Source: a virus. Taken from it: 28,880 bases of DNA. The stretch covers positions 1-28,880 of the IMG/VR virus record IMGVR_UViG_3300023176_001055; one strand, given 5' to 3'. Positions 2,767-9,733 of this stretch are shown piece by piece (positions within the stretch are counted from its first letter, which is position 1; every line of letters begins with the position of its first letter). Both the position numbers and the translations under genes were made by a program. The notes under the pieces were generated by a model that saw nothing but the letters and a program-made list of their open reading frames with translations, ran no database searches and was not told the DNA's origin.

Positions 2767-3155
2767 TGTTTGATTTAAAAAAGCCTACAGTGCAGTTATT
2801 AGGAAGATGGCAGCCTTGGCATAAAGGACACACTGAATTATTTAGAAAGGCTCTAGCAAAAACAGGCCAAGTTTGTGTAATGGTCAGAGATGTACACGGT
2901 GTTGATGCTGGTATGGGAAATGATGACAATCCGTTCGAACATACCGAAGTTGTAATTAATATTCAAGCCGCATTACTTGCAGAAGGATATACACACGGTG
3001 TAGAATATATTCTAGTTCAAGTACCAAATATAGTTGATATTAGTTATGGAAGAGGAGTAGGTTATACATTTACTCAACACGATTTAGGTGAAGACATACA
3101 TAATATCAGCGCAACAGACATACGTGCAGAAATGAGGTCTCAAGGCAAACTTTAA
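2766..3155 (+). CDS. NadM/ATP-sulfurylase-like nucleotidyltransferase
   Basis: A 129-aa single-domain nucleotidyltransferase of the HxGH superfamily. GRWQPWHKGHTELF near the N-terminus is the GRFQPxHxGH motif, the middle has DNPFEHTEVV (compare NPFTAGER of archaeal NMN adenylyltransferases), and the C-terminus has ISATDIRAEM, the ISGTxxR motif shared by NadM and ATP sulfurylase. The family moves AMP or CMP onto a phosphorylated or sulfated acceptor. Its position between an APS-kinase-like gene and a sulfotransferase suggests it could make APS from ATP and sulfate, but at 129 aa it lacks most of a classical ATP sulfurylase, and the NadM resemblance is at least as strong. Stop and start codons are fused (TAATG) on both sides. 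Confidence 0.7.
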   Translation: MFDLKKPTVQLLGRWQPWHKGHTELFRKALAKTGQVCVMVRDVHGVDAGMGNDDNPFEHTEVVINIQAALLAEGYTHGVEYILVQVPNIVDISYGRGVGYTFTQHDLGEDIHNISATDIRAEMRSQGKL

Positions 3156-3688
3156 TGGCAATACTTGTTAAAGAACCTAAAAGATTCACATACATACACA
3201 TTCCTAAAACTGCTGGTACAAGTGTTACAAATGCGTTATTATCTATAGGTGGTGAACTAATTGGACGTAAACATTCTCCTAGATCTGTATTAAAAGAAGA
3301 TTTAGGTTTTGTATTCACTATAGTTAGAAACCCGTGGGAAAGAATTGTTAGTGGTTGGACGCACGATAAAAAAGCATCATGGCGTAGCAAATATCCAATG
3401 CTAGAAAAAGAGTTTAACGATGGTATATATGAATATTTGGAAGTAAGAAAAACTTTAAAACATTCACAATTAAATTATATCAATAAAGATGATATGATTT
3501 TAAGATACGAAAATCTAAATGAAGATTGGCATCATCTACGAAATATCTTATTTGTTGAGATGCCAGACCTTCCTAGATTAGAAGTAGGATCACATAATCA
3601 TTATAGAGATTATTATAATCAAAAAACTAAAGATTATGTTTACCAAAAATATAAAATTGAAATTGATACTTTAGGGTATGAATTTTAA
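3155..3688 (+). CDS. PAPS-dependent sulfotransferase (Sulfotransfer_2-like)
   Basis: A 177-aa protein. IPKTAGTS (16-23) is the 5'-phosphosulfate binding loop and IVRNPWERIVSGW (56-68) is the 3'-phosphate motif of carbohydrate sulfotransferases. The conserved spacing and the later RYENL motif, which commonly closes the fold, support a true sulfotransferase. The reaction would be transfer of sulfate from PAPS to a hydroxyl of a glycan or other acceptor. It is the last gene of the trio begun by an APS-kinase-like gene. Its stop shares TTAA with the stop of the convergent uvsY gene. No signal peptide is visible, so it acts in the cytoplasm. The acceptor is unknown; a glycan made by the divergent operon is a natural candidate. 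Confidence 0.85.
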   Translation: MAILVKEPKRFTYIHIPKTAGTSVTNALLSIGGELIGRKHSPRSVLKEDLGFVFTIVRNPWERIVSGWTHDKKASWRSKYPMLEKEFNDGIYEYLEVRKTLKHSQLNYINKDDMILRYENLNEDWHHLRNILFVEMPDLPRLEVGSHNHYRDYYNQKTKDYVYQKYKIEIDTLGYEF

Positions 3689-4140: not shown

Positions 4141-4376
4141 TAGTCCCACTCGTCATTATCATCAGGTTCATCATATGAGTCTTCATCGATAACATATTCA
4201 ACTGCTTCGTCGAGATATGTGTCAATGCCAAATAACCCCTCAATAACTTGTTCGCTCACACCATAGTCTAACAGTGTATTAATATACTCTTTTGCTAAAT
4301 CACGTTTTTTGTTTTCAGCAATATGTTCAGACATCATGTTCCAAATATCAGCGATTAAATCTTGATTCATATTCAT
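4140..4376 (-). CDS. Small acidic protein between uvsX and uvsY
   Basis: A 78-aa protein of unknown function with a helical N-terminal part (residues 1-58) and a very acidic tail (DEDSYDEPDDNDEWD). It starts directly after the uvsX stop, with the ribosome site GGAG inside the end of uvsX, and ends in a TAATG overlap with uvsY, so all three are translated as a unit. The acidic tail could mimic DNA or contact UvsX or UvsY, but that is a guess. A similar small gene is common at this position in marine T4-like phages. Confidence 0.75.
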   Translation of the reverse strand: MNMNQDLIADIWNMMSEHIAENKKRDLAKEYINTLLDYGVSEQVIEGLFGIDTYLDEAVEYVIDEDSYDEPDDNDEWD

Positions 4377-5459
4377 TTATTCTCCACTAGTTGCTACTTC
4401 AGCCTCCTTGCTAGTTTCCTCAACAACTTCTTCTTGATCAATGAGTTCTGGTTTAGCATTAAGGTCTGAGATTATCATATCTAATTTATCTCCAACCCAC
4501 GCTTTACGATACTCAATATGGTCATTGCCTGCAAGGTCAGTGTATTTAAGTCTATTGCCTTCTTTTTTCAAAATACCTTTACCTTCGAATAAATCAACCA
4601 GTCCTGAATAAGGATCCATTCCTGTTTCATATGGAATCTTAACCTGTACTGCTTCAAACGGTTTTGCGTAACGAGTTTTCATTACTTTACAAGCCGCTCT
4701 AATACCACGTACATCAGTTACTTTGTTACCGTCTTCATCTTCTTTCAGTTTCAATTTACGCATTGCTACTACAATTGAACTTGCATAGATAAAGCCTTGA
4801 CCACCTGAGATTTTATCATCTGGATCAAACATATCTTGTGATGCATAAGTGTGATTAGTTGCTACAAGTCCTACATTATGTGAACCAAACATATTAACCG
4901 AATTACGAACAAGTGCTGTTAGTGCTTTAGGCTTACGACCCATATCACCTTTTAAATCACCCTTGTCAAACTGATCAACATCTGTTGGAGTCAGTAGCAT
5001 ACCTAGTGAATCAATTACAAACAATACTTTCGGACGATCTTCTTCTGCCATTTCTCTATACTCTTTCATAAATTCTGAAATAGTTTTAGCGACATCGTCG
5101 ATCATACTCATGTTAAGTTTAAGTAATTTTTCTTCACTTGTATCAACATTAAGTGCCTGCAACCATTGTTCGTCAAGTGCGTTCTCTGAGTCAATAAGAA
5201 CTACAAAGATACCTTGATCTTGTGCTGCTTTAACAATATTTGCTGAACAGAAGTATGATTTACCACTACCTGATTCACCTGCAAATACAGTTACCTTTCC
5301 TAACGGAACACCTTTGTGAAAATCTCCACTGATCAAATAATTGAGTGCATAGTTACCTGTGCTAACCCAATCAGTGGGATCATTAAAACCAATACCAAGT
5401 CCGTCAATACTTTTAGTAAGGCTTTTTCTAAATTTACTAATATCAAATGGTTTTGCCAT
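4377..5459 (-). CDS. uvsX: UvsX RecA-like recombinase
   Basis: A 360-aa strand-exchange ATPase. Residues 61-68 (GESGSGKS) are Walker A, 145-150 (VLFVID) are Walker B, and the region NHTYASQDMFDPDDKISGGQ (202-221) is the DNA-binding loop L2 with its glycines. It forms filaments on ssDNA for homologous recombination and recombination-dependent replication together with gp32 and UvsY, both encoded beside it. I chose the ATG at 5459 because AAGGAG lies 7 nt upstream; an in-frame start at 5498 would add 13 residues and run through a hairpin. The C-terminus is acidic (EEVVEETSKEAEVATSGE), as in other UvsX and RecA proteins. Length is close to T4 UvsX. Confidence 0.95.
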   Translation of the reverse strand: MAKPFDISKFRKSLTKSIDGLGIGFNDPTDWVSTGNYALNYLISGDFHKGVPLGKVTVFAGESGSGKSYFCSANIVKAAQDQGIFVVLIDSENALDEQWLQALNVDTSEEKLLKLNMSMIDDVAKTISEFMKEYREMAEEDRPKVLFVIDSLGMLLTPTDVDQFDKGDLKGDMGRKPKALTALVRNSVNMFGSHNVGLVATNHTYASQDMFDPDDKISGGQGFIYASSIVVAMRKLKLKEDEDGNKVTDVRGIRAACKVMKTRYAKPFEAVQVKIPYETGMDPYSGLVDLFEGKGILKKEGNRLKYTDLAGNDHIEYRKAWVGDKLDMIISDLNAKPELIDQEEVVEETSKEAEVATSGE

Positions 5460-5515: not shown

Positions 5516-6499
5516 TTAGCCTTGTTGTCTGTTACGAATCATTGCAAGAATATCTTGCGCTCTATTTGCGCTGTCATTACCTGCTGTAGATTCTTCAGCC
5601 GCTGGTGCTGCTGTTTCAGTTACTGGCTCTGCCGCTGGAGTTGGAGTTGCTGCTGCCGGTGCAGATGGTGCTGCCTTACTTGTTACATTCGGATCACCTG
5701 TCTGCTGTGACATACCTGCTGGACGGAAGTATTGTCCCCAACGTTCCATATCATATGCTTCACCGTCTACTGACGCTTCAAACATTTCTTTCATTACTTT
5801 AAGTTCAACTTCAGTTGGCTTCTTAGGTAAGAAGTCTGATAAGTTAAACAATCCATGACTATCAACTGCTGCTTGTTCTTCATCAGTTAATGATCTTTCT
5901 CTACGTGACCATTGTGATGTTGAGTAATCAGCATAGCCGCCTTTAGAAGTTTTCTTAATTCTAAAGTCTACGCCTTTTAGATAATCTGTTGGAAGTTCTT
6001 CCAACTCAGGATCCATTAAAGCACTTTTAATAATTTGGAAAATTTGTGGTCCAATAATAAAACGTCTAATTGGATTATCTGGGGTAGTTTCTTCGTTTAG
6101 TGGATCATCTGAAACAAAGCCTTGGAAAATGTATGAACGCTTTTTCCAATACTTACGGCCCATATCTTCTAGTGACTTGTCTTTAAACCAGCCACGTACT
6201 TCAGATAGGATCGGACAAGTAGTACCGTCATTGTACATTTCCACGCATGGAACCTGAACAATTGTTTGACGATTGTCTGACTCGCCTTTAACTCCCGCAA
6301 ATGGAAGTTTGATCATTGCACGTTCAACCCAAAAGAATGTGTTGGCTGAGTTACCATCTGGTAAGAACCTTACCACGGCTTCTTTGCCTTCTTGCATATT
6401 CCAATGTGGGTAAACTGCGTTATCGCCGCCACCTGTGTTTCCAGATGTACGTGTTTGAGCTTCTTGAAGTTTAGCTCGGATTTCTGCTAATGTTGCCAT
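5516..6499 (-). CDS. 32: gp32-like single-stranded DNA-binding protein
   Basis: A 327-aa protein that coats ssDNA during replication, recombination and repair. The core shows the gp32 order: a basic N-terminal helix for cooperativity (LAEIRAKLQEAQTR), then VVRFLPDG, FFWVERAMIKLPF, and PCVEMYNDGTTCPI (84-97), aligning with the zinc-binding segment of T4 gp32. Only C85 and C95 remain there; the T4 H-C-C-C ligand set is incomplete. After about residue 260 comes an Ala/Pro/Thr/Glu-rich linker and a short terminal helix (RAQDILAMIRNRQQG) that replaces T4's acidic tail. The ribosome site AAAGGAGG is strong. Transcription starts from a sigma70-like promoter at 6561-6589, and uvsX follows. Confidence 0.9.
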   Translation of the reverse strand: MATLAEIRAKLQEAQTRTSGNTGGGDNAVYPHWNMQEGKEAVVRFLPDGNSANTFFWVERAMIKLPFAGVKGESDNRQTIVQVPCVEMYNDGTTCPILSEVRGWFKDKSLEDMGRKYWKKRSYIFQGFVSDDPLNEETTPDNPIRRFIIGPQIFQIIKSALMDPELEELPTDYLKGVDFRIKKTSKGGYADYSTSQWSRRERSLTDEEQAAVDSHGLFNLSDFLPKKPTEVELKVMKEMFEASVDGEAYDMERWGQYFRPAGMSQQTGDPNVTSKAAPSAPAAATPTPAAEPVTETAAPAAEESTAGNDSANRAQDILAMIRNRQQG

Positions 6500-7245: not shown

Positions 7246-7317
7246 TTACTTGTTCATGATGTACATAGTAACTTCAAATCCAAAGCGCATTTCTTCTGCT
7301 ACTGGCTTAGTCCACAT
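7246..7317 (-). CDS. pqqA: PqqA-like peptide (PQQ precursor), 23 aa
   Basis: A 23-codon ORF whose product begins MWTKPVAEEM and continues RFGFEVTMYI. It has the same length as classical PqqA, the same MW-x-KP start and the core G-F-E-V-T-M-Y. E15 and Y19 are the Glu-x3-Tyr pair that PqqE cross-links when PqqA is turned into pyrroloquinoline quinone. The ribosome site AAGGAG lies 8 nt before the ATG, and a strong terminator follows. No PqqB, C, D or E is present in the window, so the peptide would have to use host enzymes, act as a decoy, or have another role. The match is close across the full length, so chance is unlikely. Confidence 0.85.
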   Translation of the reverse strand: MWTKPVAEEMRFGFEVTMYIMNK

Positions 7318-7404
7318 AATGTGTCTCCTTTTCAGATTAAATTATGTAAACAGTTCATCGGAGATGCTGACCCAAAGTCCGATTTGAGTTCACCTAGAAA
7401 ATAA
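7318..7404 (-). other. Leader region of the pqqA-like gene
   Basis: This stretch separates the terminator of the 750-aa gene from the pqqA-like start. Apart from the ribosome site I see no convincing -35/-10 pair and no late box. A CATAAT lies about 22 nt upstream of the ATG without a good -35. A promoter is expected here because a terminator lies just upstream. Confidence 0.3.
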
Positions 7405-7428
7405 AAGTGTAGTATTGCTACTACACTT
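7405..7428 (-). terminator. Terminator after the 750-aa protein gene
   Basis: Stem AAGTGTAGTA/TACTACACTT with a 4-nt loop, followed on the minus strand by TTATTTTC. It is 52 nt past the stop of the packaging-block gene and closes the late minus-strand operon. Confidence 0.7.
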
Positions 7429-7480
7429 CTATTTAACTCTATTATAAATGATTAATTAAAAAAATCAATAAAGAAAATCA

Positions 7481-9733
7481 TTAAAACTGTATAAGTGATT
7501 TAATACGTTCTAATTCTTCTAGTTCTTCTGCGCCTTGTTCTTGGTGTGGAGCCATTCTTTCTACCATTTTACGAGCAATTGTTCCAGCCTGTTCACCAAA
7601 CTTTTTGTCTACCATTACTGCAACGCCTTCTGGTCCTTTAGGGAATGTGCCTGAATTTGTATCATAAAACGAATGTACAAATTTTGCAACATCTTCTAGT
7701 GTATGTTCTTCACCGTCTGAAGTCTTAAACTTAGTGCCTTTCTTAGCACCCTGTGATTTTAGGTCCTGAACTTTTTTGCTAAATTCATTACCTTCGGGCA
7801 TATCATCCTGTCCTACATACTTGTAGTTGCCTTTGTCATCAAAGTCGTTTTCAATTGTATCGATGGCAAATTTGATCTCCATCGGATCCGCTTTCTCGCC
7901 CTTGATTGCATTAATGACTTCTTGCTTGGACATCTTAAGTCCACTTTCCTTGTCACCGTCGTTGGTATAGTCTGAAATTAATTCATCAACACCAATCATT
8001 ATGTCTGACATTCCGCCTTCTTTAGTAACGCCTTCTTCTGCATATGATTCTGCTTGATAACCTGCTTGTTCTAGAGCATCTAAAATTTTCTCTCTAGGAG
8101 TCATTGTATGAATTATAACGCCGCCTTGTTTGGCTTCGTCTGGTTCACAAGCAGCCTTAATACCTTTGCTTTGTAATTCTTTTTCCATTGATGCACAAGC
8201 CTTTTCATCAATGCCTCTATCTTCGTCATAGTCTCCGTCAACATAAATTGCATGAGCATATGGCTCTGATTGCCCTTCATATCCTGATGCTTCTTGTTGT
8301 GGTTCAACTTCATCTGCACCAACTGCTGGTTCATCAGTCATATCACCGAAATCTAATTCTTCAGCAACTTCAGGTGCATTTTCATCAATCCATGCTTTAA
8401 CTAAAGATCTAATATCTGCGTTAGCATCTTCTGAAGCTTTCTTTTTAATGTCTTGCTCTAATTTTGGATCTTCAATAATGCCTTCTAAACTTTGAATAGC
8501 ATTAGTACCATCTACGCCTGCTTGGAATTCTTGACCCACTAGTTCATTTAATTTTTTAATCATGTCAGCCTTTTCTTCATCGTCTGCCATTACTAATGGT
8601 GATTCTTCGCCTAGTGCAGTTGCCCAGTTTTCAAATTTATCAAAAATATCTGATTTTAATTGTTCTTCTGTTTGAGGTGCTTCAACATCCTTTGTCATTT
8701 CGACTATGTCGTCGTAGCCTACTGTTTCTTCTTCTTTCATCAATCTATATAAAACTGGAAAGACTTCTGCAATATCCTCTTTGAAATTTTTAACTGTAAA
8801 TTTTTCTTTAAATTGTTCCATTACATCATCAGGTACTTCATAACCTTGTTGTGCTGCAAAGGATTCTCTATATGATTCGTAATGTGCCTGTTTCGCTAAT
8901 TTAGCAACTGTTTCTCTTAGATTATCAAGTTGCATTTTACTACGCTCAACGATTGAATTTGTGTCGGAGTTCATTAAATCGTTTCTTACTACGTAATTTG
9001 TAAAACTTTTTAGTTGAGCAATTTCTTCACTCATCTTGATAATACTTTCACCAATTTCATCGTATGGTAATCCACCATTAGCAACGTGACGTTGCATAGC
9101 ACGAGCTCCTGCTAAATGGATAAATGGATATTTAAATCTTTCACCTGATGAATTTTCTACAAACAACGCAGCGATATTTCTTGATCTATCTCCTGGTCTT
9201 TGTTCATGATCATCAGCTAATGTTTTGCTGTGTTTAATAATTAATCTTGTATCTTCTAGTTTTTGGAAACTTTGCTTCTTCGTTCCATAAAGTGAGCTCT
9301 CATTCATTACGTTTTCTCCGACAGGCTTAGTAATTGTATCATTGTCTGCTTTAGGTGTTGCATACTGACTTAGGAAACTGTAGTCTCTTTTGTCTAGATT
9401 GTCTTTTGTAATATCTCTAGTATCAAATGCTAGTAATCTAAGTTTTGCAAATTGACGAAGTTCTCTTAAAAATTTATACCACCCTGTTTTTTGTTTATCG
9501 TCCATACCTTCAGTAATACCACTTGAAAAGTATACTTTCATTGAATTAGGCTCAGCTAGGCTAATGCTAACATGACCTAATCTTTTGTCATTTTCTACAT
9601 AATCAAAGTCAAAAAATCTAGCGTCTTCAGGGTTAATTGTAATCGCGCCAGCTGCTTCACCTAACTTTAAGCCAGTGAATCTACTTCTAATTTTGTAGAA
9701 CAAGTCTGTTGATATATTACCGGTTGCATCCAT
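7481..9733 (-). CDS. Large acidic protein, putative virion protein
   Basis: A 750-aa protein. Residues 1-125 look like a compact alpha/beta domain (FFDFDYVENDKRLGHVSISL). Residues 150-300 form a second conserved-looking part (SSGERFKYPFIHLAGARAMQ and following helices). From about 330 the protein is helical and acidic with many Asp/Glu, and near 505-570 a segment (HAIYVDGDYDEDRGIDEKAC to the IIHTMTPREKILDAL region) resembles another small alpha/beta domain. No catalytic motif was recognised. It directly follows gp17 in the late operon, with a late box GATAAATA 7 nt before the ATG and a terminator after it. A late virion or packaging-associated protein is inferred. Confidence 0.6.
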   Translation of the reverse strand: MDATGNISTDLFYKIRSRFTGLKLGEAAGAITINPEDARFFDFDYVENDKRLGHVSISLAEPNSMKVYFSSGITEGMDDKQKTGWYKFLRELRQFAKLRLLAFDTRDITKDNLDKRDYSFLSQYATPKADNDTITKPVGENVMNESSLYGTKKQSFQKLEDTRLIIKHSKTLADDHEQRPGDRSRNIAALFVENSSGERFKYPFIHLAGARAMQRHVANGGLPYDEIGESIIKMSEEIAQLKSFTNYVVRNDLMNSDTNSIVERSKMQLDNLRETVAKLAKQAHYESYRESFAAQQGYEVPDDVMEQFKEKFTVKNFKEDIAEVFPVLYRLMKEEETVGYDDIVEMTKDVEAPQTEEQLKSDIFDKFENWATALGEESPLVMADDEEKADMIKKLNELVGQEFQAGVDGTNAIQSLEGIIEDPKLEQDIKKKASEDANADIRSLVKAWIDENAPEVAEELDFGDMTDEPAVGADEVEPQQEASGYEGQSEPYAHAIYVDGDYDEDRGIDEKACASMEKELQSKGIKAACEPDEAKQGGVIIHTMTPREKILDALEQAGYQAESYAEEGVTKEGGMSDIMIGVDELISDYTNDGDKESGLKMSKQEVINAIKGEKADPMEIKFAIDTIENDFDDKGNYKYVGQDDMPEGNEFSKKVQDLKSQGAKKGTKFKTSDGEEHTLEDVAKFVHSFYDTNSGTFPKGPEGVAVMVDKKFGEQAGTIARKMVERMAPHQEQGAEELEELERIKSLIQF

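Follow-up and report, generated by a model that had tools for sequence, protein, structure and literature searches.

A pqqA gene upstream of gp32 in a T4-like phage

The DNA analysed here, referred to throughout as the window, is a single IMG/VR record of 28,880 bases (IMGVR_UViG_3300023176_001055) and is probably a fragment of a larger genome. It encodes gp32, UvsX, terminase, tail sheath, neck and baseplate proteins, which agrees with an earlier, sequence-only reading of the same DNA as a T4-like phage. On its minus strand, between gp32 and a predicted promoter, lies a very short gene with the following features, listed in the direction of transcription:

7468–7483, minus strand: promoter box TAATGATTTTCTTTAT, motif score 18.4, an operator type common to host pqqA promoters
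7441–7446, minus strand: -10-like TATAAT of the predicted pqqA promoter, 37 nt from the box
7406–7427, minus strand: hairpin AGTGTAGTAGCAATACTACACT and, after it, a T-rich stretch; both sit between -10 and leader and were read from the sequence
7346–7393, minus strand: structured leader RNA, matched by covariance model R1 at 7391–7346 with 49.9 bits and E=1e-7 (the window is one of the training sequences)
7325–7331, minus strand: ribosome binding site AAAGGAG, 7 nt before the ATG, read from the sequence
7246–7317, minus strand: pqqA, 23 codons plus TAA, peptide MWTKPVAEEMRFGFEVTMYIMNK, above the cut-offs of PF08042 and TIGR02107
7202–7226, minus strand: intrinsic terminator of pqqA, ATGCTCCGCT-CACAA-AGCGGAGCAT then TTTT, a 10-pair hairpin with a T run
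5516–6499, minus strand: gp32-type single-strand DNA binding protein (PHROG 1192, E=7.7e-65), the next conserved gene downstream of pqqA

The sequence-only reading had proposed a PqqA-like peptide at 7246–7317 from its length, MW-x-KP start and Glu15-x3-Tyr19 pair. The open reading frame is real; its strand, omitted at the time, is minus, and the plus-strand reading is meaningless and matches no profile. The peptide begins MWTKP and contains both Glu15 and Tyr19. It has the length, MW..P start and Glu15-x3-Tyr19 spacing of the PqqA family and scores well above the cut-offs, with 38.1 bits against PF08042 in Pfam (cut-off 21.1, E=1.4e-9) and 35.8 bits against the NCBIfam equivalog TIGR02107 (cut-off 20, E=5e-9). 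By these profile matches, the window gene is a genuine pqqA. The strong ribosome site (AAGGAG, 7 nt 5' of the ATG) and the gene's own terminator (7226–7202) were also recognized correctly.

The claim that no other pqq gene accompanies pqqA holds for pqqC, pqqD and pqqE: in tblastn with OM43 queries, neither the window nor any of 264 related viral loci contained one of these or xoxF. For pqqB, the negative result in the same loci comes from an Acinetobacter query only. The TIGR02111 profile had no match in 20 viral records, but it had none in the control genomes either, and the absence of PQQ genes in phages is therefore based mainly on tblastn. The window copy is phage-encoded and separate from pqqC/D/E; host pqqA genes, too, are partly unlinked from pqqBCDE.

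The order of pqqA and gp32 is the same in three syntenic relatives (L035/L258, L257 and L306). Among the first 80 gp32 relatives, only these carry pqqA near gp32. The others may infect different hosts or may carry pqqA elsewhere in the genome.

Phage pqqA is found in several unrelated lineages

A tblastn search of 50,697 phage genomes returned ten credible PqqA records: four of Melnitz, one each of Venkman, MEP301, MEP401, MEP402 and P19250A, and the podovirus ctXG6705. An Acinetobacter query returned the identical set. These records cover several unrelated lineages, and their hosts are Methylophilaceae (OM43/LD28) apart from the one uncultured podovirus, supporting the earlier suggestion of a non-cyanobacterial host. 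MEP431–434 and older isolates, known from taxonomy, lie outside this comparison. PqqA is annotated in none of the ten records. As had been predicted for so short a frame, gene callers left it unannotated in Venkman, P19250A, MEP301, MEP401 and MEP402; in Melnitz and ctXG6705, an opposite-strand frame is annotated where pqqA sits. Likely wrong-strand calls over a real pqqA are MZ577095.1 74848–74943 and MW202481.1 2067–2195. No PqqC, close PqqE or XoxF relative was found in the collection, save in mislabelled Acinetobacter DNA. The apparent whole pqq operon of Acinetobacter phage MD-2021a was rejected as phage sequence, as it is bacterial DNA adjoining ppk; the sequences concerned (CAKLQF020000010.1 and CAKLQH020000055.1) are apparently host DNA.

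A DNA pattern for EMRFGFEVTMY matched IMG/VR contigs and bacterial genome loci, at least 120 of each, and the bacterial loci have mostly Methylophilaceae titles. By shared proteins, the pqqA loci form 18 groups, of which six have more than one member; the grouping uses short flanks and the lineage count is approximate. The T4-like group of the window has 73 members and the Venkman/P19250A/MEP301 group has 72.

Phage PqqA as such is not new. It was reported in 2020 as an auxiliary metabolic gene of a Lake Baikal T4-like population, VP_266, assigned to Methylophilaceae (PMC7678222). VP_266 and the window are both T4-like with PqqA; VP_266 also has a methanol dehydrogenase, whereas the window has no XoxF. 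The accessible text of that report describes no control elements, lineage breadth or introns. A keyword search of OM43 phage papers, in main texts rather than supplements, found no pqqA. What is new is the breadth of phage PqqA across unrelated lineages, the host-type promoter box, the leader RNA and the intron-split gene. The box, the leader, the split relatives and the Baikal report were also absent from the sequence-only reading.

Host pqqA genes and a shared promoter box

We found pqqA in 149 of 150 Methylophilaceae genomes, most with 2–12 copies. These counts agree with the 3–12 copies published for the family, in which the remaining pqq genes are usually single (PMC4109929). The host genomes hold extra orphan copies of peptides near-identical to phage PqqA. 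The OM43 genome G001 has three pqqA copies with pqqE far away, and its sole full-length TIGR03075 enzyme is XoxF. PqqC, PqqD and PqqE occur in OM43, the likely host group; the window phage's own host, we infer, is most likely an OM43-type methylotroph.

The box upstream of pqqA is a 16-base motif with the ideal form TCATGA-N3-TCATGA. With a motif learned on these same sequences, the upstream regions of 94 of 118 pqqA genes in phages and 120 of 159 in hosts scored above 11, compared with 0.4% of shuffles. A matrix built from host sequences only gave scores above 10 in 55 of the 118 phage upstream regions versus 0.2% of shuffles, and its matches are about 127-fold denser upstream of phage pqqA than elsewhere in the contigs. 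Across seven host genomes, roughly half of the sites fitting the strict pattern lie directly upstream of pqqA copies. The 37-nt spacing between box and TATAAT is found in the window, in L102 and in other phage copies. Judged by motif and position, the window box is of the same type as that at host pqqA genes.

Methylophilus methylotrophus has the same box at G004 C1:182165, about 2.3 kb 5' of pqqE and probably before pqqB, which suggests a wider PQQ regulon. Control of xoxF by the box was considered and rejected, as none was seen by eye within 500 nt upstream of OM43 xoxF. The hairpin at 7406–7427, which may be the terminator of the upstream gene or an attenuator, has a counterpart in the relative L306 and none in L258.

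A conserved leader RNA precedes pqqA in some phages and in OM43

Between promoter and ribosome site, the window and its three syntenic relatives share a 5' leader that is also present in other phages and in OM43 genomes. In the window it consists of P0 (GUGAAC/GUUUAC), P1 (AUCGGA/UCCGAU), an internal loop and a short P2; the segments UCAA and GA-CUG are invariant. Across 21 sequences, P1 is paired in 98.4% of cells. The whole structure contains 46 cells changed on both sides, compared with 18.6 in shuffles, and slid controls fail. The compensatory-change result persists on 33 distinct sequences. Support for the outer helix P0 is moderate (0.83 paired versus 0.68 permuted). From these comparisons, the leader is a conserved secondary structure with compensatory changes.

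A covariance model gave one strong match per genome in 20 of the 150 Methylophilaceae genomes, all 0.9–1.4 Mb in size and at most six of them the source of training sequences, and none in 273 other genomes sampled from the class. All 20 strong matches precede a tandem pqqA pair; one extra weak match (E=0.1) is without pqqA. We also searched viral contigs with a pattern that left out pqqA and left three of the six P1 pairs free. It found 61 contigs, 55 of them new. In all 55 the six P1 pairs are intact, with at least eight sequence versions among them. Wherever the contig reaches far enough, the leader is followed by pqqA or its first exon. Inspection by eye showed no leader in any of the ten annotated phage records, and the model detected none in the seven on which it was run. 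As the cultured methylophages have pqqA and no leader, the leader belongs to only some phage groups and is dispensable for phage pqqA in general.

Several identities for the leader were tried and rejected. It is not a DNA operator, as its arms vary with compensation, and it is not an Rfam riboswitch: in seven loci, the leader had no Rfam match at E of 5 or below, and nothing reached the gathering score in the window. By eye, there is no conserved GGA loop of the CsrA type. The GGAGA of the window ribosome site has its complement, UCUCC, in the 3' strand of P1. Of 53 leaders, 81% have at least five bases in this strand that are complementary to the ribosome site, compared with 15% after shuffling, a hint of a translational switch that stops short of proof.

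Phage pqqA is under purifying selection and can be split by an intron

The set used for measuring selection was gathered by the leader RNA alone, without pqqA sequence, to avoid search bias. Over its 26 distinct pqqA copies, dN/dS is approximately 0.11. Glu15 and Tyr19 are kept in 26 of 26, among the invariant residues W2, T3, P5, E9, M10, R11, G13, F14, E15, V16, T17, Y19 and N22. The sequence-only reading had pointed to conservation in related phages and constraint at the protein level as checks on its proposal; the ten methylophage and podovirus records and the low dN/dS bear these out. Near-identical host and phage peptides, a dN/dS of 0.11 and carriage in ten phage records make pqqA a candidate auxiliary metabolic gene.

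Group I introns occur in T4 genes. In at least eight leader contigs (L409, L420, L424, L436, L440, L441, L444 and L450), all relatives of the window, whose own gene is continuous, pqqA is interrupted after Gly13. The interruption matches the group I intron family RF00028 in three of the four tested (L441, L420 and L444; 65–66 bits, gathering score 50). The introns are 233 or 278 nt long and contain no open reading frame; the L420 locus spans 4148–4460, and this contig also carries a T4-type DNA polymerase. Splicing at GGGU/intron...G/UUGAA would restore the Gly-Phe-Glu frame. With gathering-level scores, a U at the end of the 5' exon and a G at the end of the intron, these elements resemble other group I introns; they differ in that the interrupted gene has only 23 codons and encodes a cofactor precursor. 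The restored frame and the splice-site bases indicate that the split copies are kept splice-competent. The literature searched, with most subscription papers outside its scope, contains no report of an intron in pqqA or of the leader RNA.

Proposed role of phage pqqA

From the PqqA identity, the purifying selection, the absence of the tested PQQ enzymes, the host-type box and the leader, all of them read from DNA, we infer expression of the gene, conversion of its product to PQQ and a benefit to the phage. We propose, with a probability of roughly three in four, that pqqA is a single-gene auxiliary metabolic cassette that feeds host PQQ synthesis and keeps XoxF charged. Boosting of host PQQ synthesis, already put forward in the sequence-only reading, is the best candidate mechanism. 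After infection, phage pqqA would be transcribed from its own promoter, perhaps driven by a host factor that reads the TCATGA-type box. Pre-existing host PqqD and PqqE would cross-link the phage peptide at Glu15–Tyr19, and host PqqB, PqqC and PqqF would finish PQQ. The extra PQQ would keep the lanthanide methanol dehydrogenase XoxF charged, providing energy and carbon for phage replication. PqqA is the only stoichiometrically consumed component of the pathway, and its availability is reportedly rate-determining in Methylovorus MP688 (as stated in a passage of PMC11317620 citing Ge 2015), so this peptide is all that the phage has to provide. A tuning of translation is the probable role of the leader. 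The P1 3' strand has two possible partners, the P1 5' strand and the ribosome site, so anything that makes P1 more stable or melts it would set how much PqqA is made.

The orphan precursor could instead be a decoy that occupies host PqqD and PqqE and stops PQQ synthesis, methanol oxidation and host growth. The phage brings no biosynthetic genes, and a PqqA homologue should bind PqqD; yet Glu15 and Tyr19 are kept in every copy and dN/dS is low, as for a functional substrate. Host-type pqqA control elements on the phage copy fit added supply, and the host genomes themselves contain extra orphan copies of near-identical peptides. Because both the substrate residues and these control elements are retained, we regard the decoy idea, raised in the sequence-only reading, as improbable. 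Somewhat less remote, though still unlikely, is a purpose other than feeding XoxF, with PQQ acting as an antioxidant or signal, or the product serving in lanthanide handling. PQQ is able to bind lanthanides, and the orphan pqqA genes of Methylorubrum rise when the lanthanide supplied is poorly soluble (PMC11317620). However, XoxF is the only full TIGR03075 enzyme in OM43 G001 and xoxF is the top transcript in OM43 (PMC5120137), making XoxF the default destination of PQQ. A point against the feeding of XoxF is that an infection may end before PQQ turnover makes a difference. PQQ was added to OM43 medium in one phage study (PMC9004378), and some hosts may therefore take PQQ up. That pqqA is hitch-hiking host DNA with no phage role is hardly credible: the gene is small and hosts offer many copies to acquire, but the constraint was measured in a leader-selected set, pqqA recurs in six gene-sharing groups of two or more members and also in Melnitz and MEP401/402, and the intron-split copies would still splice in frame.

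For the leader, we tentatively entertain a dedicated OM43 riboswitch class that senses PQQ status, through PQQ itself, an intermediate or a lanthanide, and adjusts PqqA translation accordingly. Several phage lineages would have acquired sensor, pqqA and operator together, as a 23-codon cassette that reads and resets the host cofactor level. The leader might equally be a protein-binding or mRNA-stability element, its phage copy tuned for high expression, a reading that concerns only the role of the leader and leaves PqqA aside. The small fold (P0-P1-P2, about 48 nt), the lack of a known ligand and several invariant internal-loop bases, as in protein sites, speak for such an element, which is compatible with gene-specific control. 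The exclusive link to pqqA, with one leader per OM43 genome, and the complementarity of P1 to the ribosome site weigh on the other side, suggesting gene-specific control. This second reading, too, we hold as a possibility short of even odds.

Relation to known systems and significance

Cyanophage psbA supplies a fast-consumed component of the host energy machinery, and host enzymes do the rest. Phage pqqA would resemble it in this division of labour. It differs in that the gene product is a 23-residue precursor, used once per cofactor, and that a host-type regulatory RNA is attached. A c-di-GMP riboswitch has been described upstream of a pqqA in Methylophaga GP59 (PMC12530212). It and the OM43 leader are both structured and both 5' of pqqA; the OM43 leader differs from riboswitch-type leaders in having no Rfam match, a different fold and a range limited to OM43 and its phages.

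In coastal waters, OM43 relies on PQQ and XoxF to oxidise methanol. If the proposed supply holds, viruses of methanol-eating bacteria probably sustain methanol oxidation during infection. Should they supply the PQQ precursor routinely, they may steer a carbon flux that is invisible to current annotation, because pqqA lies below the size limit of gene callers. Cultured phage–host material is at hand in Melnitz and Venkman on H5P1, in MEP301, MEP401 and MEP402, and in P19250A. The identity of the host factor that binds the box and what the leader RNA senses can now be tested.

Other genes in the window and beside host pqqA

Two other window genes are possible further auxiliary genes: a heptose kinase/adenylyltransferase-like protein at 1466–2239 and a sulfotransferase-like protein at 3155–3688. 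The tandem pqqA of OM43 G001 has, at a distance of about 1 kb, a SoxY-SoxZ fusion (L337:10425–11216) that is possibly a quinoprotein-associated carrier. Between the tandem pqqA copies of many OM43 genomes (L346–L365) is a tiny open reading frame with a CxCPxC motif, for example MKLQRRRHTDITFWPFHNWQCTCPICSARSFN, which looks degenerate in a few genomes.
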